A stretch of DNA of 64,000 nt from Burkholderia pyrrocinia. GTDB lineage: Bacteria; Pseudomonadota; Gammaproteobacteria; Burkholderiales; Burkholderiaceae. Shown one piece after another: positions 332-42,708 of the stretch; within the stretch, counting starts at the first letter, position 1; each line of letters begins with the position of its first letter. The DNA lies in NCBI RefSeq assembly GCF_018417535.1, contig NZ_CP070977.1:744001-808000 (forward strand), read 5' to 3'. The notes below the pieces were generated by a model. It had not been told where the DNA came from and searched no databases. It worked only from the letters and a program-made list of their open reading frames with translations. The position numbers were made by a program, and so were the translations under genes.

Positions 332-951
332 TGGCGAGCGGTAAATTCATCACGTTCGAAGGCATCGACGGGGCGGGGAAGACCACCCACCTGCAATGGT
401 TCTGCGAACGCCTCCAGGGCAAGCTGGCCGCGGCCGGCCGGCAGGTCGTCGTCACCCGCGAGCCGGGCGGCACGCAGCTCGGCGAGAAACTGCGCGAGAT
501 CCTGCTGAACCAGCCGATGGATCTCGAGACGGAAGCGCTGCTGATGTTCGCCGCGCGCCGCGAGCATCTCGCGCTCGTGATCGAGCCGGCGCTCGCGCGC
601 GGCGACTGGGTCGTGTCCGATCGCTTCACCGACGCGACGTTCGCGTACCAGGGCGGCGGCCGCGGGCTGCCGCGCGACAAGCTCGAGACGCTCGAGCGCT
701 GGGTGCAGGGCGGTTTCCAGCCCGATCTCACGGTGCTGTTCGACGTCGCGCCGCAGGTCGCGAGCGAGCGCCGCGGCGCCGTGCGGATGCCCGACAAGTT
801 CGAAAGCGAGTCCGACGCGTTCTTCGCGCGTACGCGTGGCGAATACCTGCGGCGAGCGGAAGAGGCGCCGCACCGCTTCGCGATCGTCGACGCGACGCAG
901 TCGATTCCCGAGATCCGCCAGCAGCTCGAACGCGTGCTCGCCGCGCTGTAA
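331..951 (+). CDS. tmk: Thymidylate kinase
   Basis: 206 residues, normal length for dTMP kinase, which phosphorylates dTMP to dTDP in the cytoplasm for dTTP synthesis. The P-loop GIDGAGKTT is near residue 11. The DRF motif ([17 protein letters not shown]) is near residues 94-110, and an Arg-containing LID segment ([14 protein letters not shown]) is near residue 147. The start is the ATG overlapping the mltG stop. The gene is followed after 19 bases by holB, placing a nucleotide kinase next to a replication clamp-loader subunit in one operon. Confidence 0.97.
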
Positions 952-970
952 CCCGCAAGGAACGCACCAC

Positions 971-1999: not shown

Positions 2000-2140
2000 T
2001 CCGCCATTGTTTCCCGGGGGTTTGGAAACGATGAACGGCTCACGCAGCGACGCGACCGTGGCCGGCCGGCCCGCGAACGCCGCCCGTTGCCGCACGCCGG
2101 CGAGCGCATGAGCGCCCGCCTTACGAATTCAGGAAACACG

Positions 2141-2920: not shown

Positions 2921-2963
2921 CGAAGCGCGCGCAGCCGACAACCCAGGGAAGGAGCCCACAACA

Positions 2964-3671
2964 ATGTCGAAGCCGACCAACCATCTGACCAAACGCGCAC
3001 TCGTCGCCGCCGCGCTGGTCGCGAGCGGCCTGTTCGCCGCCGCCGGCGCGCATGCCGAGTCGCTCGACGCGATCGTCAAGGCCGTCAAGTTCGACGACAT
3101 CGCCGATATCGGCAAGCAGCTCAAGAACGGCCTCGATCCGAACACGCTCGCGCCGAACGGCGACCCGCTGCTGGTGATCGCCGCGCGCGAGAAATCCGAC
3201 AAGGTCGCGGCGGCGATCGCCACGACGCCGAACGTCGATCTCGAGAAGGAAGACAAGGCCGGCGAGAACGCGCTGATGCTCGCGTCGCTGAACGGCGACC
3301 TCGGCCTCGTCAAGCTGCTGATCGACAAGGGTGCGGAAGTCAGCAAGAAGGGCTGGGCGCCGCTGCACTACGCGGCGACCAACGGCCAGGACGCGGTCGT
3401 CAAGGTGCTGCTCGACCACGACGCGTATATCGACACCGCGTCGCCGAACGGCACGACGCCGCTGATGATGGCCGCGCGCGGCAACCATGCGTCGACGGTC
3501 ACGCTGCTGCTCGACCAGGGTGCCGATCCGCAGGTGAAGAACCAGCTCGGCATCACCGCGCTCGAGTTCGCGAAGCATTACAAGGCGCCGGATGCGATCG
3601 ACATCCTGAGCAAGCGCACGGTGCGTATCGGCGGGTCGGCGCCGGCTGATGCGCAAAAGAGTGCAAAATGA
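2964..3671 (+). CDS. Ankyrin-repeat protein with signal peptide
   Basis: 235 residues. The N-terminus (MSKPTNHLTKRALVAAALVA, then a small-residue stretch ending AHAE) is a clear Sec signal peptide, so the protein is probably periplasmic. About four ankyrin repeats follow (for example ENALMLASLNGDLGLVKLLIDKGA and the segments around APLHYAATNGQ and TPLMMAARGNH), covering roughly residues 55-210. The function is unknown; ankyrin repeats are protein-interaction scaffolds. The start follows GGAAGGAG. It lies 43 bases behind tatD in the same direction and may share its transcript. Confidence 0.88.
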   Translation: MSKPTNHLTKRALVAAALVASGLFAAAGAHAESLDAIVKAVKFDDIADIGKQLKNGLDPNTLAPNGDPLLVIAAREKSDKVAAAIATTPNVDLEKEDKAGENALMLASLNGDLGLVKLLIDKGAEVSKKGWAPLHYAATNGQDAVVKVLLDHDAYIDTASPNGTTPLMMAARGNHASTVTLLLDQGADPQVKNQLGITALEFAKHYKAPDAIDILSKRTVRIGGSAPADAQKSAK

Positions 3672-3802
3672 CGGTTTTCGGTGCGACCGGCCAGGGCGGC
3701 GGCGCGCACCCGGCCGGCCGGATTCCGGCCGGAGCAGGGTGTCCGGCGCCGCGCCGGCCAAGGCAGCAGGCGGTCTCGGGCCGCATTGACATAAGGAACA
3801 CC

Positions 3803-4159
3803 ATGTTGCGCGCAATGTTTTGTGCCGCGGCGTTTGCCGTGCCGTTGTCGGCGGCGGCTTTCACGGGCGCGGATCTCGACCGGCTGTGCGCGAAGACGGA
3901 CGTCAAGTCGCGGGCGTCGTGCGCGGCCTATATCGAAGGCGCCGCCGACGGCGTCTACAACACCATCGACGCGATCGGCGGCACCACGGGGCCGCGTGTC
4001 GGCCAGTATTTCTGCCTGCCGCCCGACATCCGGGCGCAGCAGATGACCGATGCGGTGCGCAAGTACATCGCGGAAAATCCGAAGCTGGCCGACTACAACG
4101 CGAGCACCGCGGTGTCGCTCGGTCTCGGCAAGGCGTTTCCCTGCAGGGGCGGCAACTGA
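3803..4159 (+). CDS. Rap1a/Tai-family secreted protein
   Basis: 118 residues beginning with a short signal peptide (MLRAMFCAAAFAVPLSAAA) followed by a mature domain with four Cys (RLCAKTD, ASCAAYIEGAAD, YFCLPPD, AFPCRGG). This matches the Rap1a/Tai immunity-protein fold, whose founding members neutralise type VI amidase toxins in the periplasm. No toxin or type VI gene is nearby, so it is either an orphan immunity protein or a family member with another role. The start ATG at 3803 follows ATAAGGAAC. Family assignment is from motif pattern only. Confidence 0.8.
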   Translation: MLRAMFCAAAFAVPLSAAAFTGADLDRLCAKTDVKSRASCAAYIEGAADGVYNTIDAIGGTTGPRVGQYFCLPPDIRAQQMTDAVRKYIAENPKLADYNASTAVSLGLGKAFPCRGGN

Positions 4160-4255
4160 TCTGACGCCGTGTCCGGGCGCGTGCATTGCCCGGATGTCGC
4201 CGACGCATCCAGGACGAGGCGTGCGCGCCTCATAACCGAAGCATCCCGGGCGCCG

Positions 4256-5428
4256 ATGATTTCAATCGAGGAACTGCCGCGCATCGCCGATGCGCCGCTG
4301 CATTCGTGGCTCGGCACGCTGGCCGTGTCGGTCATCGTCGTACTGGTCGTCGCGATCGCGCACCGTCTTGGCGCACGGATCGTCAAGCGTATCGCGCAGC
4401 CGTATCCGCTGATGAGCGCAATCCTGCGCTACATCGACAAGTCGTCGCTCGTCGTACTCGCGCTGCTGACGCTCGAATTCCTGTGGGTCCAGGCCGACGA
4501 CGGCATGTCGTTCGTGGGTGGCATGCGCACCGCGGCGGCGGTCGGCTCCATCGTGTCGCTCACGTGGCTGCTGGTGCGGCTCGCGGCCGGCGTCGGCGAC
4601 GCGATCATCAAGGCGCATCCGATCGATACGGCCGACAACCTCCAGGCGCGGCGCATCCATACGCAGGCCCGGGTGCTCGTGCGGACCGTGATGGTGCTGG
4701 TCGTGATCATCGGCACCGGCGCCGCGCTGATGACGTTCCCGAATGTGCGCCAGGTCGGCGCGAGCTTGCTGGCGTCGGCCGGCGTCGCGGGCCTGGTCGC
4801 CGGTATCGCCGCGCGGCCGGTGCTCGGCAACCTGATTGCCGGGCTGCAGATCGCGCTCACGCAGCCGATCCGGCTCGACGATGTAGTCGTGATCCAGGGC
4901 GAGTGGGGGCGCATCGAGGAAATCACCGGTTCGTTCGTGTCGGTGCGGCTGTGGGACCAGCGGCGCCTCGTCGTGCCGCTGCAGTGGATCATCGAGAACC
5001 CGTTCACGAACTGGACGCGCAACAGCGCGGAAATCATCGGCACGGTCTACCTGTCGGTCGACTACCGCACGCCGCTCGCGCCGCTGCGCGAGGAACTCGC
5101 GCGGCTCGTCCACGCGGCGCCCGAGTGGGACGGCCGCGTGCAGGTGCTGCAGGTGACCGACGCGACGGAGCGTGCGATGCAGTTGCGCGCGCTCGTCAGC
5201 GCGGCCGATTCGCCGTCGTGCTGGGATCTGCGCTGCCGCGTGCGCGAAGGGTTGATCGCGTACCTGCAGGATCGCTATCCGCAATGCCTGCCGCGCAGCC
5301 GGACGGAGCTGTATCCGCATGAGTCCGCGCCGGACGCACCGAACCCCGAACGGCCGCACGCGCGGCCGCCTGCCGCCAGCACGGCGGCCAACACCGCAGC
5401 CGATCCGCAGGCCACCGACGGCCGCTGA
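4256..5428 (+). CDS. MscS-family mechanosensitive ion channel
   Basis: About 390 residues from the ATG at 4256; a GTG at 4169 in the same frame would add 29 residues without obvious conservation. Four hydrophobic helices occupy the first ~200 residues. The MscS pore helix is clear (GVAGLVAGIAARPVLGNL), followed by the beta domain (PIRLDDVVVIQGEWGRIEEI, then IENPFTNWTRN). Such channels open on membrane tension and release solutes on hypo-osmotic shock. The last ~50 residues are Pro/Ala-rich and non-conserved. The gene is followed 30 bases later by an ATPase gene. Confidence 0.9.
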   Translation: MISIEELPRIADAPLHSWLGTLAVSVIVVLVVAIAHRLGARIVKRIAQPYPLMSAILRYIDKSSLVVLALLTLEFLWVQADDGMSFVGGMRTAAAVGSIVSLTWLLVRLAAGVGDAIIKAHPIDTADNLQARRIHTQARVLVRTVMVLVVIIGTGAALMTFPNVRQVGASLLASAGVAGLVAGIAARPVLGNLIAGLQIALTQPIRLDDVVVIQGEWGRIEEITGSFVSVRLWDQRRLVVPLQWIIENPFTNWTRNSAEIIGTVYLSVDYRTPLAPLREELARLVHAAPEWDGRVQVLQVTDATERAMQLRALVSAADSPSCWDLRCRVREGLIAYLQDRYPQCLPRSRTELYPHESAPDAPNPERPHARPPAASTAANTAADPQATDGR

Positions 5429-5458
5429 ACGCGGCCCGCGTGCCCGCCATCCATCGCC

Positions 5459-6637
5459 ATGACCGCGCTGAACACGCTCGCCATCGCCAATTACCGCTCG
5501 CTGCGCGAGCTGATCGTGCCGCTCGCGGCGCTCAACGTCGTCACGGGGCCGAACGGCAGCGGCAAGTCGAGCGTGTACCGCGCGCTGCGGCTGCTCGCCG
5601 ACACCGCGCAGGGCCGCGTGATTCCGTCGCTCGCCCGCGAGGGCGGCTTGCCGTCGACGCTGTGGGCCGGCCCCGAGCGCTTCTCGCGCGCGATGCTGGC
5701 CGGCGATGCGCCGGTGACCGGCACGGTGCGCAACGGGCCCGTGAGCCTGAAGCTCGGCTTCGCGTGCGACGATTTCGGCTATTCGATCGATCTCGGCCTG
5801 CCGGTGAAGAACGACGCGTCGATGTTCCGGCTCGATCCGGTGGTCAAGCGCGAGTGCATCTGGGGCGGTGCGCTGCCGCGCCCGTCGACGCTGCTGGTCG
5901 ACCGGCAGGGCGCGCAGATCCGCGCGCGTACCGCGTCGGGCGACTGGCAGACGATTCCGCAGCCGGTCGCGAGCTTCGACAGCATGATGACCGAGTTCGC
6001 CGATCCGACCGGCGCGCCCGAGATGATCGCGGTGCGCGAGCGGATCCGCTCGTGGCGCTTCTACGACCATTTCCGGACCGATGCGCAGGCGCCGGCACGG
6101 CAGTCGCATATCGGCACCCACACGCCGGTGCTGGCGGACGACGGCGCCGACCTGGCCGCCGCGCTGCAGACGATCCGCGAAATCGGCGACGGCGCGGCGC
6201 TCGATGCGGCGCTCGACGACGCGTTTCCCGGCGCGTCGGTCGAGATCGACAATCCGGGCGGCCGCGGCCGCTTCGACGTGCTGATGCGCCAGCCGGGGCT
6301 GTTGCGGCCGCTCGCGGCGGCCGAGCTGTCCGACGGCACGCTGCGCTACCTGCTGCTCGCGGCCGCGCTGCTGACACCGCGGCCGCCGGCGCTGATGGTG
6401 CTGAACGAACCGGAGACGAGCCTGCATCCCGATCTGCTGCCGGCGCTCGGCCGCCTGATCGCGCAGGCCGCGCAGCGTTCGCAGGTGCTGGTCGTGTCGC
6501 ATGCGGCGCGGCTCATCGCGACGCTCGAGCGCGAGGCCGGCTGCGAATCGCTGGTGCTCGACAAGCAGCTCGGCGCGACCGCACTCGTCGATGCCGACTC
6601 GCGCGACCTGCCGGCATGGAAGTGGCCGTCGCGCTGA
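5459..6637 (+). CDS. AAA-family (SMC/RecF-like) ATPase
   Basis: 392 residues. It starts with the RecF/SMC-like N-terminus (LNTLAIANYRSLRELIVPL), Walker A GPNGSGKSS near residue 32, a signature-like SDGTLRYLLLAAAL near 285, Walker B LMVLNEPETSLHPDLL near 315, and a His-switch VVSHAARL. No TOPRIM domain is visible, so it is not an OLD nuclease. Its target is unknown; the fold suggests DNA- or complex-bound ATPase activity. The 284 bases after it (6638-6920) hold no gene I can recognise, only the upstream region of the glycosyltransferase. Confidence 0.88.
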   Translation: MTALNTLAIANYRSLRELIVPLAALNVVTGPNGSGKSSVYRALRLLADTAQGRVIPSLAREGGLPSTLWAGPERFSRAMLAGDAPVTGTVRNGPVSLKLGFACDDFGYSIDLGLPVKNDASMFRLDPVVKRECIWGGALPRPSTLLVDRQGAQIRARTASGDWQTIPQPVASFDSMMTEFADPTGAPEMIAVRERIRSWRFYDHFRTDAQAPARQSHIGTHTPVLADDGADLAAALQTIREIGDGAALDAALDDAFPGASVEIDNPGGRGRFDVLMRQPGLLRPLAAAELSDGTLRYLLLAAALLTPRPPALMVLNEPETSLHPDLLPALGRLIAQAAQRSQVLVVSHAARLIATLEREAGCESLVLDKQLGATALVDADSRDLPAWKWPSR

Positions 6638-6920
6638 CGGGCACGGCGGCGTGGGTTCGGCCGCGCGCGTCGCCCAAGGGCCCGAACCGGCCCGGCTGTA
6701 CCCGATGCGGTGCGATCGGGCCCGACGGGCGGAATGTATCCGGTCTGTAACAACGCCCATAAAATGAAAGACGGGCGGTTCCGCGCGTCGGGATCGCGAA
6801 TAATAATGAGATATCCGGCTGGCGCCAGGCCGGTCGGCGCTGCACGGGAGCGGGACGGGCGCGAAAGCGCAAACGCCCGCCGGCCGTGCGGCAACGGACA
6901 GGACACAGGAGACGTGGACC

Positions 6921-7985
6921 ATGAGAATCGCCCAGATCGCCCCGCTGACCGAATCGGTGCCGCCGAAGCTGTACGGTGGCACGGAGCGCGTCGTGTCCTA
7001 TATCACCGAGGCGCTCGTCGATCTCGGCCATGATGTGACGCTGTTCGCCAGCGGCGATTCGACGACACGGGCGAAGCTCGAACCCGTCTGGCCGCGCGCG
7101 CTGCGCCTCGATTCGTCGATCCGCGACCGAGTCGCCCCGCACATGCTGCTGATGGAGACGGTTGCGCGCCGCGCGCAGGACTTCGACGTGCTCCATTTCC
7201 ACATGGACTACTACTCGTTCTCGGTCTTCAACCGGCAGGAAACGCCTTACGTGACGACGCTGCACGGCCGGCTCGACCTGCCCGAGCAGCAGCCGGTGTT
7301 CGACACGTTCAACACGGCGCCGGTGATCTCGATTTCGAACTCCCAGCGCCAGCCGCTGCCGCAGGCGAAATGGCTGACGACCGTCTACCACGGGCTGCCC
7401 GATACGCTGTACATGCCGCAGCCCGTCGAGCCGCGCTATCTCGCGTTCCTCGGCCGCATCTCGCCGGAGAAGCGCGTCGACACCGCGATCGGCATCGCCC
7501 GCCAGTGCGGGCTGCCGATCCGGATCGCCGCGAAGATCGATGCGGCCGACCAGGAATACTTCGACCGCGAGATCAAGCCGCTCTTCGCGTTGCCGCACGT
7601 CGAATACATCGGCGAGATCGCCGATCACGAGAAGGCCGAATTCCTGTCGGGCGCGCATGCGCTGCTGTTCCCGATCGACTGGCCGGAGCCGTTCGGCCTC
7701 GTGATGATCGAGGCGATGTCGTGCGGCACGCCGGTGATCGCGTTCAATCGCGGCGCGGTGCCCGAAGTGGTGGACGAGGGCGTGTCGGGTTTCATCGTCG
7801 AGGACGAAATCAGCGCGGTGGCCGCCGTGAACCGGCTGCACCTGCTGCCGCGCGCGCGCGTGCGGCGGCGCTTCGAGGAGCGCTTCACGTCGCGCCGGAT
7901 GGCACAGCAGTACGTCGACGTCTACCAGTCGGTGATCCGCGCGCAGAAGCGCTCGCGCTTCAAGGTGATCGATTCGACGACCTGA
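6921..7985 (+). CDS. Glycosyltransferase family 4 protein
   Basis: 354 residues with the GT-B layout. The N-terminal acceptor domain contains LYGGTERVVSYITEALVDLG and the donor domain contains LGRISPEKRVDTAI. The retaining GT4 signature EPFGLVMIEAMSCGTPVIAF comes next, with NRGAVPEVV after it. It probably transfers a nucleotide-activated sugar to a surface or storage polysaccharide; the acceptor cannot be told from sequence. It is a single gene with its own upstream region, ending at a strong bidirectional hairpin. Confidence 0.88.
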   Translation: MRIAQIAPLTESVPPKLYGGTERVVSYITEALVDLGHDVTLFASGDSTTRAKLEPVWPRALRLDSSIRDRVAPHMLLMETVARRAQDFDVLHFHMDYYSFSVFNRQETPYVTTLHGRLDLPEQQPVFDTFNTAPVISISNSQRQPLPQAKWLTTVYHGLPDTLYMPQPVEPRYLAFLGRISPEKRVDTAIGIARQCGLPIRIAAKIDAADQEYFDREIKPLFALPHVEYIGEIADHEKAEFLSGAHALLFPIDWPEPFGLVMIEAMSCGTPVIAFNRGAVPEVVDEGVSGFIVEDEISAVAAVNRLHLLPRARVRRRFEERFTSRRMAQQYVDVYQSVIRAQKRSRFKVIDSTT

Positions 7986-8007
7986 CGCGGCGCGCGAGCG
8001 AATAAAA

Positions 8008-8039
8008 AAACGGCGATGCCCGCAAGGACATCGCCGTTT
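8008..8039. terminator. Bidirectional intrinsic terminator
   Basis: Arms AAACGGCGATG (8008-8018) and CATCGCCGTTT (8029-8039) form an 11-bp perfect stem around a 10-base loop. An A-run lies on the left and T on the right. It sits between two convergent genes (glycosyltransferase and SYLF lipoprotein) and can serve both. Confidence 0.88.
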
Positions 8040-8081
8040 GCGCATGGCCCGCGCGCGTTGCGCACGGGCGGTGCGTGAGCG

Positions 8082-8669
8082 TCAGATCTTGAGCTTCGTG
8101 ACCTTCGTGCCGTTGATCGACACGTCGCCCATCAGGCCCGCGTTTGTCAGCACGACGACCTGGACCGGCGCGGTGGCCGTGGTCGTGTCGACCGCGCCGT
8201 TCGCGCCCATTTTCACGAGCGCGACCGATGCGCCGGCGCCGGCGGCCCAGCCGTCCGAGCCGCGGAATTCGTCGAGCGCTTCCTGCGTCATGAACAGGAA
8301 CACGATCGCCTTCGACTGTGCACCGGCCTGCAGGCCGACCGACAGCGACGACGTGTTGTAGTAGCCGACCGTCGCGCCACCGACGCGCAGCGCGCCGTTG
8401 CCGCTCTGGCCGCCGACGATGAAGCCGGCCTGGAGCACGTCCGGGAACACCAGCACGCCGCGCGACTTCGCGACGAGTTCACGCGAACCCTTGACCGTGG
8501 AATACAGGCGCGACAGCGTCCCATCGACACTCGCGTCGATCGCCTGGCGCTTCGACGCGTTGGTCGCCGCGTTGTCCGGCTTGTCCGGGGTGGTGGTGCA
8601 ACCGGTAAGCGCGAGGCTACCGACGATGAGCGCAGCGGCGGCTTTCAGCACAAGATTCCGTTTTTGCAT
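8082..8669 (-). CDS. SYLF-domain lipoprotein (Ysc84-like)
   Basis: 195 residues. The signal ends in a lipobox (SLALTGC), so it is a lipoprotein. The mature part is a SYLF/Ysc84 lipid-binding domain: ANASKRQAIDASVDGTLSRLY, AKSRGVLVFPDVLQAGFIVG, GYYNTSSLSVGLQAGAQSKA, and a C-terminal beta segment. Homologues in B. pseudomallei are known as BPSL1445-type lipoproteins. It probably associates with membranes in the periplasm; the exact role is unknown. It is transcribed alone, converging on the terminator at 8008-8039. Confidence 0.88.
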   Translation of the reverse strand: MQKRNLVLKAAAALIVGSLALTGCTTTPDKPDNAATNASKRQAIDASVDGTLSRLYSTVKGSRELVAKSRGVLVFPDVLQAGFIVGGQSGNGALRVGGATVGYYNTSSLSVGLQAGAQSKAIVFLFMTQEALDEFRGSDGWAAGAGASVALVKMGANGAVDTTTATAPVQVVVLTNAGLMGDVSINGTKVTKLKI

Positions 8670-8902
8670 CGTTCTTCTCCATCGGATGACGTTCGGAGTG
8701 AGTCTCGCTCAAGGAGCGGATCACGTCGGCAGTTATATCACAGCGGATTACAACCCCTTTTCGATCGCGCATGAAAGAGCGTCAAATCGCGTTGGGTGTC
8801 GCGGCGCACCAACGGACGGACCGGCGCCCGCACGCCGACGCGGCATGCGGGGAGTGCAATGGTCAATCGGGCGGCGACGGCGCTTGCCGGCGTGTCAGTG
8901 CG

Positions 8903-9352
8903 TCAGTGCGTGACCGGCGGGACGGGCGGCTTGATCGGCGGGCGGCGCAGCGCGCGGCGGATCAGCGCGATCACGACGCCGCAGGCGAACAGGAACGCGG
9001 CCGGTACGACCCAGTAGCCGACGAACGCATGCCACAGATAGCCCGCGAGCGTATTGCGGCGCACCATATATTCGTCGCGGGCCGCCTGCTGGCGCGGCGC
9101 GTTGGCGGCGAGCACGTCGGCCGGGCAGCCGGCCGCGCGCGCCTCGTCAGGATCCCCGTGGCACTTCGCGGCGGCGCCGGCGGCCTGCTGCGCGTCGGTG
9201 AGTTGCCAGGTGGTCAGCGCGAGCTGCAGGTCTGCCTTGTTGTAGGCCATTTCCTCGCGGATCTCGCGCACGGCGACGATCGCGACGGGCACGGCCCAGA
9301 ACACGATCACGATCAGCCAGCGGCGGAACCAGCGGTGTTGTCTCCATGCCAT
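8903..9352 (-). CDS. Small membrane protein of unknown function
   Basis: 149 residues with two hydrophobic segments: near residues 10-27 (WLIVIVFWAVPVAIVAV) and near 112-132 (WVVPAAFLFACGVVIALI). A soluble loop of about 80 residues between them contains two Cys (AKCHGDPDEARAAGCPAD) that could form a disulphide. The C-terminus is Pro-rich. I do not recognise a family. The start ATG at 9350-9352 follows no strong ribosome site. Bases 9353-9629 upstream hold nothing further that I can support. Confidence 0.68.
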   Translation of the reverse strand: MAWRQHRWFRRWLIVIVFWAVPVAIVAVREIREEMAYNKADLQLALTTWQLTDAQQAAGAAAKCHGDPDEARAAGCPADVLAANAPRQQAARDEYMVRRNTLAGYLWHAFVGYWVVPAAFLFACGVVIALIRRALRRPPIKPPVPPVTH

Positions 9353-9629
9353 CCATGCCTCCGTTTGACGCGCGTGCGCGTCTGTCTCGAGGGCGGCCCG
9401 ATGGCGCTTCTTGTACTTGGGTGGGCCGCGTTGCAGCCATCATAGAAGAAAACGCGGCGAATTGCCGCACCATCTGGCGGCGCCGGTACGGCGGGCCGGG
9501 AAAGCGGGGCGGGCGGAGGCGGGCAGGCGAACGGCGGCGGCGGAACGCGCGTTTCAGGTCGAGGTGCGCGACGCGCGCGGCAGGCGCTTCAGGCGCGTAC
9601 GCATCGATGCGCATGCAACGAAAACAAAA

Positions 9630-20500: not shown

Positions 20501-22924
20501 ATGAACGCGCCGCAAGATCCCCAAATCGAATCGCTGAAAGTCCCGCCGCATTCGGTCGAAGCCGAACAGTCGGTGCTCGGCGGCCTGTTGCTCGACAACG
20601 CGGCATGGGACCGGATTGCCGACTTCCTGTCGCAGGGCGATTTCTACCGCTACGACCACCGGATCATCTACGAGCACATCGGCCGGCTGATCGCGTCGAC
20701 GCGCCCGGCCGACGTCGTGACCGTGTACGAAGCGATGACCACGTCCGGCAAGGCCGACGACGTCGGCGGGCTCGCGTACCTGAATGCACTCGCGCAGAAC
20801 ACGCCGAGCGCGGCGAACATCCGTCGTTATGCGGAAATCGTGCGCGACCGTGCGGTGCTGCGCCGGCTCGTGTCGGTCGCCGATGAAATCTCGGCCGACG
20901 CGTTCAATCCGCAGGGCAAGGAAGTCCGCCAGTTGCTCGACGAAGCCGAGTCGAAGGTGTTCTCGATCGCCGAAGAGGGCGCGCGCGGCAACCAGGGCTT
21001 CCTCGAGATCGGCCCGCTGCTCACGCAGGTCGTCGAGCGCATCGACACGCTGTACCACACGGCGAACCCGAGCGACGTCACGGGCACGCCGACGGGCTTC
21101 GTCGACCTCGACCGGATGACGTCCGGGATGCACGGCGGCGAACTGATCATCGTCGCGGGGCGGCCGTCGATGGGCAAGGCCCAGCCGCTCGACGCACGCG
21201 TCAGGACGCTGACGGGCTGGAAGCCGATGGGCGAGCTGGCGGTCGGCGATGCGCTCGCTTCGGTTGACGGCGCACCGTCGGTCGTGACCGGCATCTACCC
21301 GCAGGGCGAGCGCCAGGTGTATCGGGTCCGCTTCTCGGACGGCCGCTCGGCCGAATGCTGCGACGAGCACCTGTGGTGCGTCCATTTCCGCGGGTGGGGC
21401 AAGCCGCGCGTGCTGTCGACCGGGGAGATTCGCACGTTGCTGGCGCGCGAACGCTACCGGAACCGGTTGTGGATCGACATGCCGAGCGGCGAGTTCGGCC
21501 ATCGGGAAGCGCTGCCGGTCGACCCGTGGGTGCTCGGCGCGCTGCTGGGCGACGGCGCTATCGGCGGTACTGCCGTGCGTTTCAGCGTGAAGGCCGAGGA
21601 AACGCTGAACCGGATGCGTGCGCGCGTCGACGCGTCGCTCGAGCTCGAACACGCGGGCCAGTACGACTGGCGCATCAAGCGCCGTCCATCCGCGGCCGGC
21701 CAGGCCCGGCCGTCCGCCAACCCGCTCAAGACCGCCCTCGAGCAGCTCGGTGTGTGGGGGAGGACGAGCTACGACAAGTTCATTCCGCGCAGTTACCTCG
21801 ATTCGGACAAGGACGCGCGGCTCGATCTGCTGCGCGGGCTGCTCGACACTGACGGCTGGGTCGAATCGTGGGGCACGGTGCGCTATTCGACCGCCAGTGC
21901 GCAGCTGGCGAACGACGTGCGCGAACTGGCGCGTTCGCTCGGTGCGTGGTGCCAGATTGCCGAAAAGGCGACGAGCTTCACGGTCGACGGCGAACGCAAG
22001 ACCGGCGCGACGGCCTACGTTTGCACGATCAGTCATCCGGATCCGCAGAGCCTGTTCCTGTTCGAGGGCAAGCGCGAGCGGCTCGCGGGCGGACGGATGC
22101 GCCGCAAGATGCCGGTTATCACCGGCATCGAGCCGACGCGCCGAACGGCTACGCAATGCATTTCGGTCTCGCATCCGTCGCGGCTGTACGTGACCGACGA
22201 TTACGTCGTGACCCACAACACGGCCTTCTCGATGAACATCGGCGAATATGTCGCGGTCGAGTACGGGCTGCCGGTCGCGGTGTTCTCGATGGAAATGCCG
22301 GGCACCCAGCTCGTGATGCGTATGCTCGGCTCGATCGGCCGGCTCGACCAGCACCGGATGCGTACGGGCCGCCTGACGGACGAGGACTGGCCGAAGCTGA
22401 CCCATGCCGTGCAGAAGATGAGCGAGGCGCAAATCTTCATCGACGAGACGGGCGGCCTGAACCCTATGGAATTGCGCTCGCGCGCGCGGCGTCTCTCGCG
22501 GCAATGCGGCAAGCTCGGCCTGATCATCGTCGACTACCTGCAGCTGATGTCGGGTTCGTCGCAGGGCGAGAACCGTGCGACCGAAATCTCGGAAATTTCA
22601 CGTTCGCTGAAGAGTCTCGCGAAGGAGCTCGACGTGCCGGTGATCGCGCTGTCGCAGTTGAACCGCGGCCTCGAACAGCGCCCGAACAAGCGTCCGGTGA
22701 TGTCCGATTTGCGTGAATCGGGCGCAATCGAACAGGATGCGGACGTGATCCTGTTCATTTACCGCGACGAAGTCTACAACCCGGACAGCCCCGACAAGGG
22801 CACGGCCGAAATCATCATCGGCAAGCAGCGTAACGGCCCGATCGGCCCCGTTCGGCTCACGTTCCTGGGTCAATACACGAAGTTCGACAATTTTGCCGGA
22901 GCGCAGACCTTCTACGGCGAGTAA
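20501..22924 (+). CDS. dnaB: Replicative DNA helicase DnaB containing an intein
   Basis: 807-residue precursor. The spliced helicase would be 460 residues, the normal length. The N-terminal primase-binding domain includes PHSVEAEQSVLGGLLLDNAA. The RecA-like C-terminal domain begins with the Walker A sequence GRPSMGK, which is broken by the intein (residues 227-573) and resumes TAFSMN. Walker B is LIIVDYLQLMSG, and the C-terminus has SQLNRGLEQRPNKRP and SDLRESGAIEQDAD. Because the intein lies between the catalytic Lys and Thr of the ATP site, the helicase should be inactive until splicing. dnaB is essential, so splicing must work if no other copy exists. Confidence 0.97.
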   Translation: MNAPQDPQIESLKVPPHSVEAEQSVLGGLLLDNAAWDRIADFLSQGDFYRYDHRIIYEHIGRLIASTRPADVVTVYEAMTTSGKADDVGGLAYLNALAQNTPSAANIRRYAEIVRDRAVLRRLVSVADEISADAFNPQGKEVRQLLDEAESKVFSIAEEGARGNQGFLEIGPLLTQVVERIDTLYHTANPSDVTGTPTGFVDLDRMTSGMHGGELIIVAGRPSMGKAQPLDARVRTLTGWKPMGELAVGDALASVDGAPSVVTGIYPQGERQVYRVRFSDGRSAECCDEHLWCVHFRGWGKPRVLSTGEIRTLLARERYRNRLWIDMPSGEFGHREALPVDPWVLGALLGDGAIGGTAVRFSVKAEETLNRMRARVDASLELEHAGQYDWRIKRRPSAAGQARPSANPLKTALEQLGVWGRTSYDKFIPRSYLDSDKDARLDLLRGLLDTDGWVESWGTVRYSTASAQLANDVRELARSLGAWCQIAEKATSFTVDGERKTGATAYVCTISHPDPQSLFLFEGKRERLAGGRMRRKMPVITGIEPTRRTATQCISVSHPSRLYVTDDYVVTHNTAFSMNIGEYVAVEYGLPVAVFSMEMPGTQLVMRMLGSIGRLDQHRMRTGRLTDEDWPKLTHAVQKMSEAQIFIDETGGLNPMELRSRARRLSRQCGKLGLIIVDYLQLMSGSSQGENRATEISEISRSLKSLAKELDVPVIALSQLNRGLEQRPNKRPVMSDLRESGAIEQDADVILFIYRDEVYNPDSPDKGTAEIIIGKQRNGPIGPVRLTFLGQYTKFDNFAGAQTFYGE
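21179..22219 (+). other. Class 3-type intein with LAGLIDADG endonuclease, inside dnaB
   Basis: 347 residues in frame. It begins with Ala, not Cys/Ser, and ends His-Asn before a +1 Thr. Block B reads CDEHLWC, giving His64 and Trp66; block F reads TQCISV, placing Cys327 where standard inteins have Asp. Trp (block B), Cys (block F) and Thr+1 are the hallmark of class 3 inteins, in which the block-F Cys makes the first thioester. Two endonuclease motifs are present (LGALLGDG with Asp125; LLRGLLDTDGW with Asp223/Asp225), so the homing nuclease looks intact. Confidence 0.9.
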
Positions 22925-23030
22925 CGCCGGTTGTAAAGCCCTAAATCGCCAAACGTTGTATCCAATCCCGGCGCGCGCATGTGCGCGCGTCGCGGCGCGA
23001 CCGAAAACGGTACAATGTCGCCCGTTTTCG

Positions 23031-23046
23031 TGACAGTAGTTTGACA
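23031..23046 (-). promoter_or_regulatory. Possible Pho-box-like repeat in the displaced native DUF47 leader
   Basis: On the minus strand this reads TGTCAAACTACTGTCA, two TGTCA repeats at 11-bp period, the spacing of a PhoB half-site pair. A candidate -10 (TACAAT) lies just upstream at 23011-23016. The native leader is now cut off from the phosphate genes by the island. The reversed orientation makes this uncertain. Confidence 0.35.
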
Positions 23047-23062
23047 ATCTCTCAGGAATCCC

Positions 23063-23093
23063 ATGTTCGGTCGATTCATGCCCACCGAGGGCA
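23063..23093 (+). repeat. attL of the integrated island
   Basis: Positions 23063-23093 and 41061-41091 match in 28 of 31 bases, including a perfect 16-base core ATGCCCACCGAGGGCA (23078-23093 and 41076-41091). The three differences are all third-codon positions (TTC/TTT, CGA/CGT, TTC/TTT) of the DUF47 N-terminus. These are the two ends of the element. Confidence 0.9.
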
Positions 23094-23131
23094 GAAAATG
23101 CGGTCTGAGGGTGTCCAAGGTTGTCTGGTGA
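23063..23131 (+). pseudogene. Displaced 5' fragment of the DUF47 gene
   Basis: The fragment begins MFGRFMPTEG, identical to the start of the intact DUF47 protein at 41061, and then runs into island sequence, ending at TGA (23129-23131) after 22 codons. It keeps the native promoter region after dnaB. It is the footprint of integration, not a functional gene. Confidence 0.88.
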
Positions 23132-23197: not shown

Positions 23198-23225
23198 ATT
23201 TCGTATAAAATCCGTATACGGAAAT
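23198..23225. promoter_or_regulatory. Left arm site / integrase operator candidate
   Basis: ATTTCGTATA (23198-23207) and TATACGGAAAT (23215-23225) are imperfect inverted arms just before the integrase gene. The core TTCGTATAAAATCCGTAT (23200-23217) recurs with three mismatches at 40968-40985 near attR, as expected of integrase arm sites or a shared operator. It also overlaps a possible -10 (TATAAA). Confidence 0.45.
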
Positions 23226-24866: not shown

Positions 24867-25055
24867 ATGATCGTTGATCGAGGTTTGTTGCGTATCGCAG
24901 ATGTTGTGAAACTGACGGGCATCGGGCGGGCGACGATTTATGAGTTGATTGCACGCGGTGATTTTGTGCCCCGTATTCGTTTGTCTCCTGGTCGAATCGC
25001 TTTTCGAGCTGAAGACATCGAGCGATGGGTGGAATCGCGGCGTGAGAGCATTTAA
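24867..25055 (+). CDS. AlpA-like helix-turn-helix regulator
   Basis: About 62 residues starting MIVDRGLLRIADVVKLTGIG, with the recognition helix ATIYELIARGDFV and the wing/edge DIERWVESRR: the MerR-like AlpA fold of phage regulators and excisionases. In related elements AlpA activates the integrase or acts as a directionality factor. The start at 24867 lies 6 bases after GGAG. Two in-frame ATGs just upstream are possible but badly spaced. Confidence 0.82.
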   Translation: MIVDRGLLRIADVVKLTGIGRATIYELIARGDFVPRIRLSPGRIAFRAEDIERWVESRRESI

Positions 25056-36201: not shown

Positions 36202-36846
36202 TTACTTTGCGCCGTCCCGCTTCTCAATGGCAGCTAGCGCACCGGCTGGCAAAGACGCGTATATGTCATCAACCATGCGCGGTCGGGTGATGCGATCTTC
36301 GACGATCATGTTGACGAGGGTGAACAGCGTTGTGCTTACACCCGAGATGTCTTCGTCGTCCATTTGTCCGGGGTGAACGGCATTGTTTCCTGTAACTCGG
36401 ACGACATCCATTGCCTGAGCAATCTTCGGCGGCAGACCCTGACGAACCAAGTACGCAATTTGGGCGTTGATGTTTGCGCCTTCGGCGTTCAGGGTGACAC
36501 AGAGTTTTTCGATGCACAGGCGAAGCAGCGCCGCTGCGGCGCGAGGCGAGACAGAAACAACCTGCCTCGCTTCTTCATAGTCTTGGAGCGCGATGTCGGG
36601 CATATCATCATGCGGCGGGGGCGCCGACGTTGTGCGCGGATATACCATCACGCCGTCCGCGTCGGTTGTGCTTTTCGACCACCAAACGCTTTCGCCATTA
36701 CACCGGGTGCAGTGTGCCAGTGATACCCGAGTATGCGCGATGCCACTGCCTACAACGCACAACTGAGACCACATCATCTGCGCATAAGCTTCGCAATGCG
36801 GGCAGGTGAAAGCGGTCGCTCGAAATGAAGGTGCCTCATGTTTCAT
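36202..36846 (-). CDS. DUF4145-domain protein
   Basis: 214 residues. The N-terminal zinc-ribbon (FTCPHCEAYAQ and LAHCTRCNGES) is followed by the DUF4145 helical core (DYEEARQVVSVSPRAAAALL, RLCIEKLCVTLNAEG, NNAVHPGQMDDEDI). DUF4145 domains occur in restriction-like and other defence proteins and in accessory genes of mobile elements. It is alone on the minus strand, so it is probably a cargo gene. No catalytic residues are evident. Confidence 0.8.
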   Translation of the reverse strand: MKHEAPSFRATAFTCPHCEAYAQMMWSQLCVVGSGIAHTRVSLAHCTRCNGESVWWSKSTTDADGVMVYPRTTSAPPPHDDMPDIALQDYEEARQVVSVSPRAAAALLRLCIEKLCVTLNAEGANINAQIAYLVRQGLPPKIAQAMDVVRVTGNNAVHPGQMDDEDISGVSTTLFTLVNMIVEDRITRPRMVDDIYASLPAGALAAIEKRDGAK

Positions 36847-37682: not shown

Positions 37683-38609
37683 GTGGATACCGCACGCGAC
37701 AAAAATACCCTCGAATTAGTTGAGGCCGAAGAGCTGTGGAATATGGCCACCGTCGATCAAGACGGGTACATATGCCCAGGATGCGAGACGAGCGTATTCC
37801 CCGCGTCATACGACAAGGAGAAGAACAAGAAGCGCCCGTATTTCACATTAGGGCCGACCAATAAGCACGTGCCCGGTTGCGACGTGGATGGCGAAGAGAA
37901 AGTTGTTAAGCGCGCAAAGAAAGAACGCGTAGGCACGCCCGAAGGGTTTCCACTTCCGTTTCCGAACAGATTGACGCTGACTGACGAGCGTCCGGTTGTT
38001 CCTAGCGGTGGAGGGAATCTGCCGACAGAGCAAGGTCCGGTGCGGACTGGTAGTCGGGCGCGGGCGGGAAGCGTGGGGGCCGGGCACCACGGACACACGG
38101 TAAAAACTATTCGCCCAGCCTGCCGAGCATTCATCAACTACCCGCACGATCGCGGACACCTGCCGTTTTCGATTGATGGTGTTCCGGGGAAAACTTACGC
38201 CGAGGTATTCTGGTACTTGCGCTCCAAAAAGCCGGAACATTTTAACACTCCAAGACATCTTTACTACGCGACGATACGCTGGAAATCTGAGCCTGTCGTA
38301 GCAGACTCACATTGTGAGTTGACGCTCAACGTCGGGGAGTGGGACGCAGCAAAGAAAGCGCACAAGAGTCTCTCGCGAGTCCGGGTGGATTGGTCGAATT
38401 GGAGTCAAACGCGCCGCGATTCGCTCATCAGAGAGTTTGAGGCGACTCGAAATGAAGCTGCGGAGCAAGCCAAGACAAGTAGCGACGTAAAAGGCTGGTT
38501 GTTTTTTGTTGGTACACAGGACACCGAGGATCCGGAGGTGTTTCACGTCAACAATCATCGACTGATCTGTTGTCTGTCCGCCGAAATAGTGTGGCCCGCA
38601 AGGTCGTGA
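37683..38609 (+). CDS. Cargo protein with N-terminal zinc-binding motif
   Basis: 308 residues from a GTG behind AAGGAG. The N-terminus has a CxxC pair (YICPGCETSVFPASY) and a later Cys (HVPGCDVDG), with KRPYFTLGPTNKH between, a putative zinc ribbon also seen in CoiA-like and accessory proteins. The middle is low-complexity, and the C-terminal ~170 residues form an alpha/beta domain (TYAEVFWYLRSKKPEHFN). No known catalytic motif. Codon use is AT-richer than its neighbours. The function is unknown; a defence or moron role is possible from context. Confidence 0.7.
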   Translation: MDTARDKNTLELVEAEELWNMATVDQDGYICPGCETSVFPASYDKEKNKKRPYFTLGPTNKHVPGCDVDGEEKVVKRAKKERVGTPEGFPLPFPNRLTLTDERPVVPSGGGNLPTEQGPVRTGSRARAGSVGAGHHGHTVKTIRPACRAFINYPHDRGHLPFSIDGVPGKTYAEVFWYLRSKKPEHFNTPRHLYYATIRWKSEPVVADSHCELTLNVGEWDAAKKAHKSLSRVRVDWSNWSQTRRDSLIREFEATRNEAAEQAKTSSDVKGWLFFVGTQDTEDPEVFHVNNHRLICCLSAEIVWPARS

Positions 38610-38945: not shown

Positions 38946-39215
38946 TCAGAATATTTTGGCGAGCCGCTGCCGCTCTTTTTCGGCCTCTTCGCGTCGTGAA
39001 TCGATGTATATGGCTAAATCGATCATATAAATTCCTTTCGTTGATTTTTGACTTGCCTCGATTCTCAAGAGCGGTAGTGGAATTTCACCGTGCGCGAGCT
39101 TTCTGATGAACACATGGGGTTCGAGGTGGCTGAAGTATTCCTTGCGCACCTCGTCGAGTGGGATCACTGCGCGCGGGCCGAACTGAGCCATAAGGAAAAA
39201 GAGTGTGTCAGTCAT
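38946..39215 (-). CDS. PrtN-like pyocin-activator family protein, copy 2
   Basis: 89 residues from the ATG at 39213-39215 (MTDTLFFLMAQFGPRAVIPL). It is clearly paralogous to copy 1: VRKEYFSHLEPHVFIRKLAH and MIDLAIYIDSRREEA align without gaps. A longer frame to 39272 adds 19 unrelated residues. The tandem pair suggests a duplication, with possible division of labour or heterodimers. Confidence 0.78.
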   Translation of the reverse strand: MTDTLFFLMAQFGPRAVIPLDEVRKEYFSHLEPHVFIRKLAHGEIPLPLLRIEASQKSTKGIYMIDLAIYIDSRREEAEKERQRLAKIF

Positions 39216-39436
39216 TTTCTGATTGCATGAAGGTAGGATGCCTATGATGCCATCAGTGGCGTTATATTTCATATTTTCTACCTAATTGGTTGCTGATCGT
39301 GAGCTATTGTGTGGATTTTGCTACCGAATTGGGATTAATGCGACGCTGAGAAAATATCGCTTGTAAACGCGGCCAATGATGATTAAACTGAATTCATCGC
39401 TGAAACAACAGCGATCAGGTTTGGCGACCTGAACTT

Positions 39437-39472
39437 ACACACGGCGGACAGCCGCCTAAGCGCGGTTTTTTT
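39437..39472 (+). promoter_or_regulatory. seqA-like target and attenuator
   Basis: ACACACGG (39437-39444) is perfectly complementary to CCGTGTGT (39548-39555) in the loop of the C4-like RNA. It runs into GGCGG (39443-39447), which can pair with CCGCC (39452-39456); alternatively CCGC (39452-39455) pairs with GCGG (39462-39465) and is followed by seven T, a terminator. RNA pairing at the target would disrupt the first hairpin and favour termination, as in P4 immunity. Confidence 0.55.
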
Positions 39473-39504
39473 ACGTCCGCACGTCTCTGCACGCCTTCAA
39501 GATC

Positions 39505-39590
39505 AATGGGCGGGCCTGGACGGGGAGACCTTCGGGTCTGCCGGTTTCCGTGTGTGCCGGTTCGCCAACCCCGCTCAGTGCCCGCCCACC
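39505..39590 (+). ncRNA. C4 / P4-CI-like antisense immunity RNA
   Basis: The outer stem GGGCGGGC (39508-39515) with GCCCGCCC (39580-39587) encloses AGACC-TTCG-GGTCT (39526-39539) and GCCGG...CCGG (39540-39560), whose loop carries CCGTGTGT. Upstream (39437-39444) and downstream (CACACGCGG, 39622-39630) complements correspond to seqA and seqC of phage P4, with the loop as seqB. This arrangement is that of the C4/CI RNAs that repress phage P1/P4 lytic functions by antisense termination. Bases 39216-39436 hold no gene that I recognise. Confidence 0.6.
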
Positions 39591-39640
39591 CCGTTTGGCG
39601 ACGGGAGGCGGGCCTCCAACTCACACGCGGAGGTCTCATC

Positions 39641-40188: not shown

Positions 40189-40740
40189 CTATTGCCAAGA
40201 TCCGACGAATGAATCGCTGCCGTTTCCTTGGCCGCCTCCCGTGCTGAACACATCGATTTCCCCGTGCGTACCTGGGTTGCGATATTGGTACGGCGCACCC
40301 CACGGATCCGGCGGCATACGTTCAAGGTATCCGCCTTCCTTCCAATTGGCGGGCGCCGGGGCGCCGGTAGGCTTTTGCACGAGGGCGGCTAGGCCTTGCT
40401 CCTGCGTCGGATAGGCGCCGTTGTCGAGTCGGTACAACTTCAGTGCCTGGATCACCGTGCCGATGTCTTGGCGGGCGGCGAGTCGGCGCATTTCATCCTT
40501 GCCATTGCTTGTCGTTATCTGCGTCGCTGCCGCTGCCGCGTTGATGCAATTGGGATCATCTTTGAGTTGGCCTGGATTCGAACCGCACTCAGAGAGCGCG
40601 CGGTTGAGAGCGTCGCGATTTGCCACAAACTCGTCGACCTTCATCACACGATCGAGTCCGGCGACTTGGGTTCGATTGCACGCGGTTAGCGTGACCGTGA
40701 GCAAGACGGTGAGTGACGCCGCTTTGAGAGTGGTTCTCAT
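40189..40740 (-). CDS. Lipoprotein: EexN-like domain fused to GspG pseudopilin domain
   Basis: 183 residues. The signal ends in a lipobox (LTVTLTAC). Residues ~30-75 match EexN/TrbK entry-exclusion proteins (KVDEFVANRDALNRALSECG, then NPGQLKDDPNCINAAAA). Residues ~85-183 match the soluble half of the type II major pseudopilin GspG (DIGTVIQALKLYRLDNGAYP, TQEQGLAALVQKP, MPPDPWGAPYQYRNPG, DVFSTGG). The pilin helix is missing, so it cannot enter a pseudopilus. A surface or periplasmic superinfection-exclusion role is inferred. It is single, near attR. Confidence 0.75.
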   Translation of the reverse strand: MRTTLKAASLTVLLTVTLTACNRTQVAGLDRVMKVDEFVANRDALNRALSECGSNPGQLKDDPNCINAAAAATQITTSNGKDEMRRLAARQDIGTVIQALKLYRLDNGAYPTQEQGLAALVQKPTGAPAPANWKEGGYLERMPPDPWGAPYQYRNPGTHGEIDVFSTGGGQGNGSDSFVGSWQ

Positions 40741-40926
40741 GTGGATGGCCCCGTTTGAGTTGTTTTCGTGCTGCTGCGCATAGGCACAATATCCCCATTT
40801 GGCCCCGTATACAAGCGGGGTGAGGGCCGTTCCGTGACTGTCAAGTGCAAGGAATATGCATGCAACACGCTGCGCATCGAAGCTACGCAGTTACCGGACT
40901 ATGGACGGTTTCCTATAGAATGCGGC

Positions 40927-40944
40927 CTGTCATGAATCCGTCAT
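40927..40944 (+). promoter_or_regulatory. Pho-box-like sequence upstream of DUF47-pit, brought by the island
   Basis: CTGTCATGAATCCGTCAT matches the PhoB consensus (CTGTCAT-A/T-rich-CTGTCAT) in the two TGTCA/CGTCA half-sites at 11-bp spacing. It lies 117 bases before the DUF47 start in island-derived DNA. It could place phosphate uptake under PhoB. Two TCATGA palindromes overlap it, so another regulator is possible. The rest of 40741-41060 holds no gene. Confidence 0.55.
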
Positions 40945-40967
40945 GAGCGGATGATTCGTGCGCGATA

Positions 40968-40985
40968 TTCGTACAAATTTCGTAT
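40968..40985 (+). promoter_or_regulatory. Right arm-site candidate
   Basis: TTCGTACAAATTTCGTAT differs at three positions from 23200-23217 near attL and lies 76 bases from attR. Each copy has two TTCGTA-like units 11 bases apart. It is a candidate integrase arm-binding site. Confidence 0.45.
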
Positions 40986-41060
40986 GGCCCAGTGCCTGGG
41001 TGCGCAGAAATCATCTAACGTACTGATTTAATTGCAAATTTACGCACTGGTCAAGCCCAT

Positions 41061-41091
41061 ATGTTTGGTCGTTTTATGCCCACCGAGGGCA
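41061..41091 (+). repeat. attR of the island
   Basis: Matches 23063-23093 in 28 of 31 bases with a perfect 16-base core (41076-41091). The island-side bases encode the same MFGRFMPTEG residues through synonymous codons, so the target gene is rebuilt at this end. Confidence 0.9.
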
Positions 41092-41687
41092 AGTTCTTTG
41101 AACTCTTCAATGCGCACGCGAAGTACATCGTTTCCGGTGGCCGCGAGCTCGAACTGCTGATCGACAATCTCGCCGACGCCGAGATTCACAAGCAAAACGT
41201 GCAGACCGCCGAGAAGGCCGCTGACAAGCTCACGCACGAAGCGATCGATTTGCTGCACAAGACTTTCATCACGCCGCTCGATCGCGACGAGATCCACAAG
41301 CTGATCACGACGATGGACGACATTCTCGACCTGATGGAAGACGTCGCGACGGCCGTGTCGCTGTACGACGTGCAGTCCGTCACGTCCGAGGCGAGCCAGC
41401 TCGCGCACATCGTCACGCAGTCGGCACAGCACGTGCAGCAGGCAGTCGGGATGCTGTCCGACATGAAGCAGTCGGCGCAGATCCTCAAGCAGTGCGAGGA
41501 GATCGACCGCTGGGAGTCGGAGGCCGATCGCGTGCTGCGCGCGGCGATGTCGAAGCTGTTCCGCGAAGAAGACGACGTGAAGACGCTCATCAAGCTGAAG
41601 GCGATCTACGAGCTGCTCGAAGAGATCACCGACAAGTGCGAGGACGTCGCGAACATCATCGAAGGCATCGTGCTGGAAAACGCCTGA
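41061..41687 (+). CDS. DUF47 family PhoU-like phosphate transport regulator
   Basis: 208 residues, all-helical, starting MFGRFMPTEGKFFELFNAHA with the DUF47/PhoU metal-type motifs TMDDILDLMEDVA and LEEITDKCEDVANIIEG. Such proteins are adaptor or regulatory partners of low-affinity Pit transporters. The first ten codons now come from the integrated island but encode the same peptide. The start has no strong ribosome site (TCAAGCCCAT), so translation efficiency may have changed. pit follows after 10 bases. Confidence 0.93.
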   Translation: MFGRFMPTEGKFFELFNAHAKYIVSGGRELELLIDNLADAEIHKQNVQTAEKAADKLTHEAIDLLHKTFITPLDRDEIHKLITTMDDILDLMEDVATAVSLYDVQSVTSEASQLAHIVTQSAQHVQQAVGMLSDMKQSAQILKQCEEIDRWESEADRVLRAAMSKLFREEDDVKTLIKLKAIYELLEEITDKCEDVANIIEGIVLENA

Positions 41688-41697: not shown

Positions 41698-42708
41698 ATG
41701 CATTCGATACAACTCGCCCTATGGATGGTCGCGACGCTGGTGCTCGTCGCGCTCGTATTCGACTTCATGAACGGCTTCCACGACGCAGCGAACTCGATCG
41801 CCACCGTCGTGTCCACCGGGGTGCTGAAGCCCCAGCAGGCCGTGGTGTTCGCGGCGGCGTTCAACGTCATCGCGTATTTCATCTTCCACCTGAAAGTTGC
41901 GCAGACCGTCGGTAAAGGCACGATCGATCCCGAGATCGTCGACCACTATGTCGTGTTCGGCGCGCTGATCGGTGCGATCGGCTGGAACGTGATCACCTGG
42001 TACTACGGGATCCCGTCGAGCTCGTCGCATGCGCTGATCGGCGGCCTCGTCGGCGCGGCACTCGCGAAGTCGGGATGGAGCTCGCTGAACATGGACGGGC
42101 TGATGAAGACCGTCGCGTTCATCTTCATTTCGCCGCTGCTCGGCTTCATCCTCGGTTCGCTGTTCATGCTCGGCGTGTCGTGGCTGTATTTCCGTACCGC
42201 GCCCAGCAAGGTCGACCGGCGGTTCCGGCGGCTCCAGCTGTTGTCGGCCGGCCTGTACAGCCTCGGCCACGGCGGCAACGACGCGCAGAAGACGATCGGC
42301 ATCATCTGGATGCTGCTGATCGCGTCGGGCTATGCGTCGGCGACGTCCGATGCGCCGCCCGCGTGGGTGATCGGCGCGTGCTACCTGTCGATGGGCCTCG
42401 GCACGCTGTTCGGCGGCTGGCGCATCGTGCGCACGATGGGCCAGAAGATCACGAAGCTCAAGCCGGTCGGCGGTTTCTGCGCGGAAAGCGGTGGTGCGAT
42501 CACGCTGTTCATCGCGTCGTTCCTCGGTATCCCCGTGTCGACCACGCATACGATCACCGGCGCGATCGTCGGCGTCGGCGCGACCCGGAAGCTGTCGGCC
42601 GTGCGCTGGGGCGTTGCCGGCAACATCGTGTGGGCGTGGGTGCTGACGATTCCCGCATCCGCGCTGATCGCGGCCGGCGGATGGTGGCTCGGACACCGGA
42701 TCTTCTGA
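41698..42708 (+). CDS. pit: Low-affinity inorganic phosphate transporter
   Basis: 336 residues with about ten transmembrane helices and the two PiT signature repeats: DFMNGFHDAANSIATVVSTG near residue 22, GIPSSSSHALIGGLVGAALA near 102, GHGGNDAQKTIG near 190 and GIPVSTTHTITGAIVGVGAT near 278. It imports phosphate with metal by proton symport. It is cotranscribed with the DUF47 gene, and any change of upstream promoter by the island affects it. Confidence 0.94.
   Translation: MHSIQLALWMVATLVLVALVFDFMNGFHDAANSIATVVSTGVLKPQQAVVFAAAFNVIAYFIFHLKVAQTVGKGTIDPEIVDHYVVFGALIGAIGWNVITWYYGIPSSSSHALIGGLVGAALAKSGWSSLNMDGLMKTVAFIFISPLLGFILGSLFMLGVSWLYFRTAPSKVDRRFRRLQLLSAGLYSLGHGGNDAQKTIGIIWMLLIASGYASATSDAPPAWVIGACYLSMGLGTLFGGWRIVRTMGQKITKLKPVGGFCAESGGAITLFIASFLGIPVSTTHTITGAIVGVGATRKLSAVRWGVAGNIVWAWVLTIPASALIAAGGWWLGHRIF

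Follow-up and report, generated by a model that had tools for sequence, protein, structure and literature searches.

How can a mobile element insert itself into the first codons of a conserved protein gene and leave that gene readable? The question arises in a 64,000-nucleotide stretch of the Burkholderia pyrrocinia genome (hereafter the window), where an integrase island of ∼18 kb parts dnaB from an operon made up of a DUF47 (PhoU-like) gene and pit. The insertion lies inside the 5' coding end of the conserved DUF47 gene, whose start codon and reading frame are restored by island-borne sequence with codons that differ from the native ones. The initial annotation saw in these synonymous codons the distinguishing feature of the island and regarded a 5' coding end as an unusual target.

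The repeats at the two ends of the island (Table 1) match at 28 of 31 positions, against 20 of 31 for the runner-up 31-mer of the 64-kb window; no third copy was found in the genome, which holds just attL and attR. Both repeats encode the peptide MFGRFMPTEG, and the three differences (TTC/TTT, CGA/CGT and TTC/TTT) are all in third codon positions, as had been claimed. The length given to the att sites stands for the imperfect 31-nt repeat and not for exact identity, which is limited to 16 bp (23078–23093 and 41076–41091). Two further claims were borne out: the frame that starts in attL continues for 22 codons in all, leaving a stub after dnaB that stops at 23131, and the DUF47 protein is kept as an intact 208-aa frame opened by attR, while its upstream region has been exchanged for sequence unrelated to the native one. 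The Pit gene comes after the rebuilt DUF47 gene.

Table 1. Features of the island and of its junctions in the window.
Feature	Position	Strand	Basis or remark
Native DUF47 leader (upstream region), stranded after dnaB	22925..23062	+	Agrees with what precedes the gene in island-free genomes of the genus
attL, carrying the first ten DUF47 codons in native host form	23063..23093	+	Repeat comparison
22-codon stub, the displaced 5' end	23063..23131	+	Reading frame from attL
Core GCC-CACCGAG-GGC in attL	23080..23092	+	Covered by the identity block in the 16 islands compared
Direct-repeat element TTCGTATAAAATCCGTAT, candidate integrase arm site, integrase side	23200..23217	+	Putative role; similar in relatives
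Tyrosine integrase, 378 aa	23241..24377	+	PF00589, E 1e-7; phrog_1, E 3.5e-37
AlpA-family regulator, candidate excision/regulatory protein	24867..25055	+	PF05930, E 8.2e-12; putative role
Promoter-like element TTTCCTATAGAAT...GTCAT-N7-GTCAT, conserved, ∼150 bp before the rebuilt start	40909..40944	+	Putative function
Direct-repeat element TTCGTACAAATTTCGTAT, candidate integrase arm site, distal side	40968..40985	+	Putative role
attR, with island-borne start codon and codons 2–5	41061..41091	+	Comparison with island-free loci
Core GCC-CACCGAG-GGC in attR	41078..41090	+	Identity block
Rebuilt DUF47/PhoU_div gene	41061..41687	+	PF01865, E 2.1e-28
pit-type phosphate transporter gene, downstream of DUF47	41698..42708	+	PF01384, E 7.4e-100

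The native dnaB–DUF47 junction is known from other genomes, not from the window's own. Searching the 65 genomes of the genus for the site with up to three mismatches, we found one copy in 62 of them, two copies in the window genome and G064, and none in G057, which is 82% complete. Codons 2–5 are of the attL type in 61 of the 64 genomes with a match (the exceptions are G015, G028 and G047), and the 28 island-free leaders that were read are all native and followed by attL-type codons. Compared base by base with six island-free loci, the left half of the window is identical at 255–273 of 281–283 positions and the right half at 291–295 of 300, so that the uninterrupted junction expected of island-free relatives is present, with both halves matching; the 250 bp before attR gave 67–102 matches in 261–363 aligned columns and are unrelated to the native leader region. 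Since the left half is native-like and the sequence before attR is unrelated, attL is the host's own 5' end, whereas the start codon of attR, its codons 2–5 and everything upstream belong to the island. The stranded native leader now reads into the stub, towards the integrase gene.

The island has a G+C content of 0.58, against 0.667 outside it, and the integrase gene stands first in it, next to the attL side. The integrase residues R240, R329, H330 and Y361 are invariant in all 13 aligned sequences. R, R, H and Y are the catalytic residues of tyrosine recombinases, and Y326 occupies a position where many recombinases carry H; the protein is a tyrosine recombinase with conserved R, R, H and Y. 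No tRNA or tmRNA genes were called in the window, and a tblastn search of the integrase against 50,697 phage records returned no match. The cargo at 36202–36846 (−) and 37683–38609 (+) matches models of candidate anti-phage defence systems, PD-T7-4 with E 3.4e-79 and PD-Lambda-4_B with E 5.7e-61. The C4 antisense RNA and isrK (Rfam) are adjacent at 38946–39593, beside a PrtN pyocin-activator gene. Because of these elements and of the further AlpA, replication-initiation-like, terminase small subunit-like, tail fibre and tail protein genes, the island looks like a phage satellite or a reduced prophage with tail genes. Its distal end carries a T2SS protein G-like gene at 40189–40740 (−) (PF08334, E 3.4e-32). 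Next to the island, dnaB (20501–22924) encodes 807 aa with an intein-like insertion, seen as a LAGLIDADG_3 match between the DnaB parts; the DnaB frames of two viral contigs, L109 and L176, are of 461 and 460 aa.

The integrase was matched at E ≤ 0.001 in 92 of 398 family genomes, with E below 1e-30 in 11 besides that of the window. Upstream regions were read for ten of these 11 strong loci (L034–L043, leaving out L044 of G255) and for seven of ten loci on viral contigs (six plus L109), the remaining three holding at most 12 bases upstream. The search for other islands with this integrase led to the same site: at least ten islands, that of the window included, occupy this position in the DUF47 gene. 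They include islands with integrases 82–85% identical in Paraburkholderia xenovorans LB400, P. phenazinium, Paraburkholderia sp. BL9I2N2 and P. dilworthii, ∼65% identical in the viral contig L109 and in G409, and more divergent ones in G064 (47–49%) and the viral contig L176 (43%); G477 retains a broken integrase, a fragment with 52% identity. The G477 island (L144, about 804–9626) is 8.8 kb long and has a point change within its attL core. Among the matches listed for the 144 genomes of the sister genus, at least 14 genomes have two matches to the site. Six of these hold islands of the set described here, namely G272 (P. dilworthii), G437, G456, G488, G409 and G477, and the coordinates in G437, G456 and G488 agree with L064, L065 and LB400. 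In seven genomes (G083, G296, G328, G352, G424, G462 and G484) the second match differs inside the core, and G487 has no integrase match.

Is the synonymous recoding a property of these islands? If three random substitutions are placed in codons 2–5, all are synonymous in 36 of 5940 cases (0.6%), and the peptide is thus kept above chance expectation. Both ends were seen for eight DUF47 islands (L109 and L176 left out), the two ends of the P. phenazinium island falling on different contigs. Codons 2–5 of attR are the same as in attL in five of the eight; they are synonymously changed in two, the window (three codons) and G477 (two codons), and in G064 two synonymous changes are accompanied by an amino-acid change, F5W. 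Synonymous divergence is therefore not a property of the system. The initial annotation had also tied the third-position differences to the island, which is true of the three-codon set as a whole, found only in the window genome among 398 family genomes, and not of its members: behind a native-type leader, TTT at codon 2 occurs in G047, G413, G417, G423 and G440 and CGT plus TTT in G446, all without an island. We regard it as improbable that synonymous codons have been selected as such, whether to stabilise the island by lowering the homology between attL and attR or to tune DUF47 translation. The changed codons of the window and G477, with the chance figure above, speak for such selection, but the two ends agree in most islands, the same third positions vary in island-free genes, and purifying selection, or a DUF47 gene acquired from another species, would yield the same pattern.

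Two more relatives with integrases 47–51% identical, both interrupted, sit in G008 and G007 in the 5' end of a gene that we take, from its protein sequence, to be ribA, encoding GTP cyclohydrolase II. The start of ribA is conserved within three mismatches in 50 of the 65 genomes of the genus. At attL the islands leave the stub MMSSRPQSPTPGKSKVS; the rebuilt RibA begins MTDSGLPTPGN, the native one MMSSRPQSPTPGN. (The ends of the G007 island lie on different contigs.) The ribA islands swap the first residues outright, with no keeping of the N-terminus. With codons 2–5 unchanged in five of eight DUF47 islands, the F5W change of G064 and the replaced N-terminus of RibA, peptide-preserving divergence cannot serve as the defining feature, and its emphasis becomes secondary. 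The rule is in-frame replacement of the upstream region, the start and the first codons, not synonymous recoding.

Six further relatives (47–52%) are found in tRNA genes, tRNA-Arg(CCG) in G157, G320, G391 and G332 and tRNA-Val(CAC) in G285 and G264. In the G391 (L145) and G264 (L153) islands ARAGORN recognises the rebuilt gene, tRNA-Arg(CCG) and tRNA-Val(CAC) respectively, on the distal side and no tRNA on the integrase side; on the integrase side of G332 a tRNA-Arg is still called. A more distant relative, L177 (39% identity), adjoins at its upstream side what we take by eye to be a tmRNA-like 3' end, where ARAGORN calls none. The cores of the four kinds of target read GCC-CACCGAG-GGC (DUF47), GCC-CACGCCG-GGC (ribA), GCC-TTCGGAG-GGC (tRNA-Arg) and GCC-GTGTGAA-GGC (tRNA-Val), and in 16 of 16 islands the block common to attL and attR lies on GCC-N7-GGC, although the attL core is altered inside in three of them (G477, G409 and G264). 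Rightwards from where GCC begins, identity extends over 10–15 nt in 15 islands and is broken at 8 nt in G477 by the attL point change. Its left edge coincides with the start of GCC in both ribA islands, precedes it by 2 nt in the window and G064 and by 5 nt in G477, and lies 17–38 nt ahead of it in the remaining 11. The block is thus confined to 15–17 bp in four islands (the window, G064 and both ribA islands); identity alone does not place the crossover in the other 12, because their blocks are longer than the core or broken.

These junctions also bear on the view that the repeat reflects ordinary duplication or homologous recombination instead of site-specific integration. Duplication can indeed yield short direct repeats, but an integrase stands at the island end, the same junction recurs in at least ten islands, the sequence past the repeat is unrelated and the GCC-N7-GGC core is seen at four different targets, which makes this view very hard to credit. 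The meaning of the core calls for more caution: symmetry is expected of tyrosine recombinase sites in general, and the motif is short, which counts against its weight. From the alignments we infer recognition of the half-sites GCC and GGC with a free spacer. A wider reading is that this integrase family reads mainly these half-sites, accepts any 7-bp spacer common to attP and attB, and so allows islands to move back and forth between anticodon arms of tRNA genes and 5' coding ends of housekeeping genes that carry the same core; at each move the target would gain another start segment and another promoter. DUF47 would then have been entered two or more times, or abandoned twice, once for ribA and once for tRNA. 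We hold this wider reading only tentatively, and give it rather less than even weight, because no more than four of the 16 blocks are confined to about the core.

The integrase tree (15 rows, with a single G007 fragment and leaving out G477) places the tRNA integrases in one clade (100/99) and groups the DUF47 integrase of G064 with those of the ribA islands (100/100); the grouping was unchanged in an earlier tree of 17 rows that included a concatenated G007 row. A single clade of all DUF47 rows is rejected (p-AU 0.00128), in a test that was run once the first tree had been seen and with clade labels taken from the targets. At least two label changes are needed on the tree, in which G008 and G264 form long branches. 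Targets have switched, because the integrases that use DUF47 are not one clade. The sisters that insert in tRNA genes do so at anticodon arms of the same GCC-N7-GGC symmetry, which makes it probable that the protein-gene sites arose by target switching around a common symmetric core.

What would drive the rebuilt gene? No sigma-70 consensus promoter was found at 40700–41120 or near either att site. The promoter-like element of Table 1 follows the pattern TTTCC[TG][AT]TARAAT and then two GTCA(C/T)-type words, which recurs, with up to two substitutions, in seven of the eight DUF47 islands; the window's copy has two substitutions against the search pattern. Scans of G064, of the G008 ribA island and of the distal ends of two tRNA islands did not turn up the element (the rebuilt end of G007 lay outside the scan). 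Its role may be to drive DUF47–pit or, in the circular form, the integrase. That it is an integrase promoter acting across attP in the circle, with DUF47–pit reached as a by-product, strikes us as unlikely, if by no means far-fetched: on the map, its orientation would read across attP to the integrase, the first gene past the junction, but no copy was found on the distal side of the two tRNA islands scanned, whose integrases would need it equally, although it could have been lost or replaced there. A copy of the native promoter at attR was considered and rejected, since sharing with the native leader was no better than in shuffles in the eight DUF47 islands (longest common words of 7–9 nt, a length attained in 13 to 60 of 60 shuffles). 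The longest words that the two ribA islands have in common with the native leader are 11–12 nt, attained in one of 60 shuffles each. Finally, TTCGTA-type direct repeats flank the junction on both sides (23200 and 40968) and look like integrase arm sites.

Contrary to the view that a 5' coding end is an unusual target, islands in prfC and dusA do likewise. Published work reports that IMEVchUSA3 supplies dusA with a new promoter and an N-terminus that is 61% identical over 35 residues, that lacZ fusions showed expression below the pre-insertion level, and that SXT likewise brings a new promoter and N-terminus to prfC (PMC8409611, citing Hochhut and Waldor 1999 for SXT). PMC4482086 likewise describes island sequence taking the place of the dusA 5' end, and according to PMC12884075 protein-coding genes hold many att sites and the target is in many cases reconstituted by the island. 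The dusA elements resemble the window island in entering a conserved protein gene at its 5' end, bringing a new upstream region and N-terminal codons and restoring the frame, but differ from it in target (here PF01865, DUF47) and core; moreover, IMEVchUSA3 replaces the N-terminus over 35 residues with expression shown, whereas in DUF47 only the start and codons 2–5 are replaced, as known from sequence. SXT shares the targeting of a protein gene 5' end and the supply of a new N-terminus, the supply of a promoter being only predicted for the window island, but is a conjugative element (ICE) with another target. The mechanism class, 5'-end integration with a supplied promoter and N-terminus, is already known, because of these dusA and prfC precedents. 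No use of DUF47, ribA or the dnaB–pit junction as an integration site was noticed in the open-access literature searched, which weakly suggests, as this negative is limited to the listed open-access results, that DUF47 and ribA are new as targets.

For integration in tRNA genes, Williams is said to have distinguished sublocation classes in 2002, anticodon-arm integrases among them. The sisters of the window integrase are of this type, inserting in tRNA-Arg(CCG) or tRNA-Val(CAC) with GCC-N7-GGC symmetry and rebuilding the gene; the window core differs in lying in a protein-coding 5' end, so that the start and first codons are rebuilt and not a tRNA 3' half.

Taken together, we consider it highly probable that the locus reflects gene-rebuilding integration at the 5' end, with a GCC-N7-GGC core, target switches and a predicted island promoter. 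The tyrosine integrase would recombine the island's attP with the DUF47 gene at GCC-CACCGAG-GGC, a core that begins at base 18 of the gene and within which the identity boundaries would place the crossover. Host sequence would pick up again within codons 6–10; because the upstream region, the start codon and codons 2–5 would all come with the island, the reading frame would be whole at attR, and the native leader and first codons would end up as a dead stub at attL. The start segment would usually keep the DUF47 peptide, most likely because it is under purifying selection or derives from a host DUF47 gene, and would change where the first residues of the target are dispensable, as in ribA. After insertion, DUF47–pit would be expressed from an island promoter, perhaps the element at 40909–40944.

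These islands add two target genes, DUF47 (phosphate-uptake operon) and ribA (riboflavin synthesis), to the core genes with a swapped upstream region and first codons, and in ribA the common block is naturally as short as 15 bp. With their sisters in tRNA anticodon arms, the islands also form a test set for integrase moves between tRNA and protein-gene targets. The main interest lies in which genes are targeted and in the relatedness to tRNA-inserting islands, not in the mode of insertion; for the host, control of phosphate transport may shift through the insertion.
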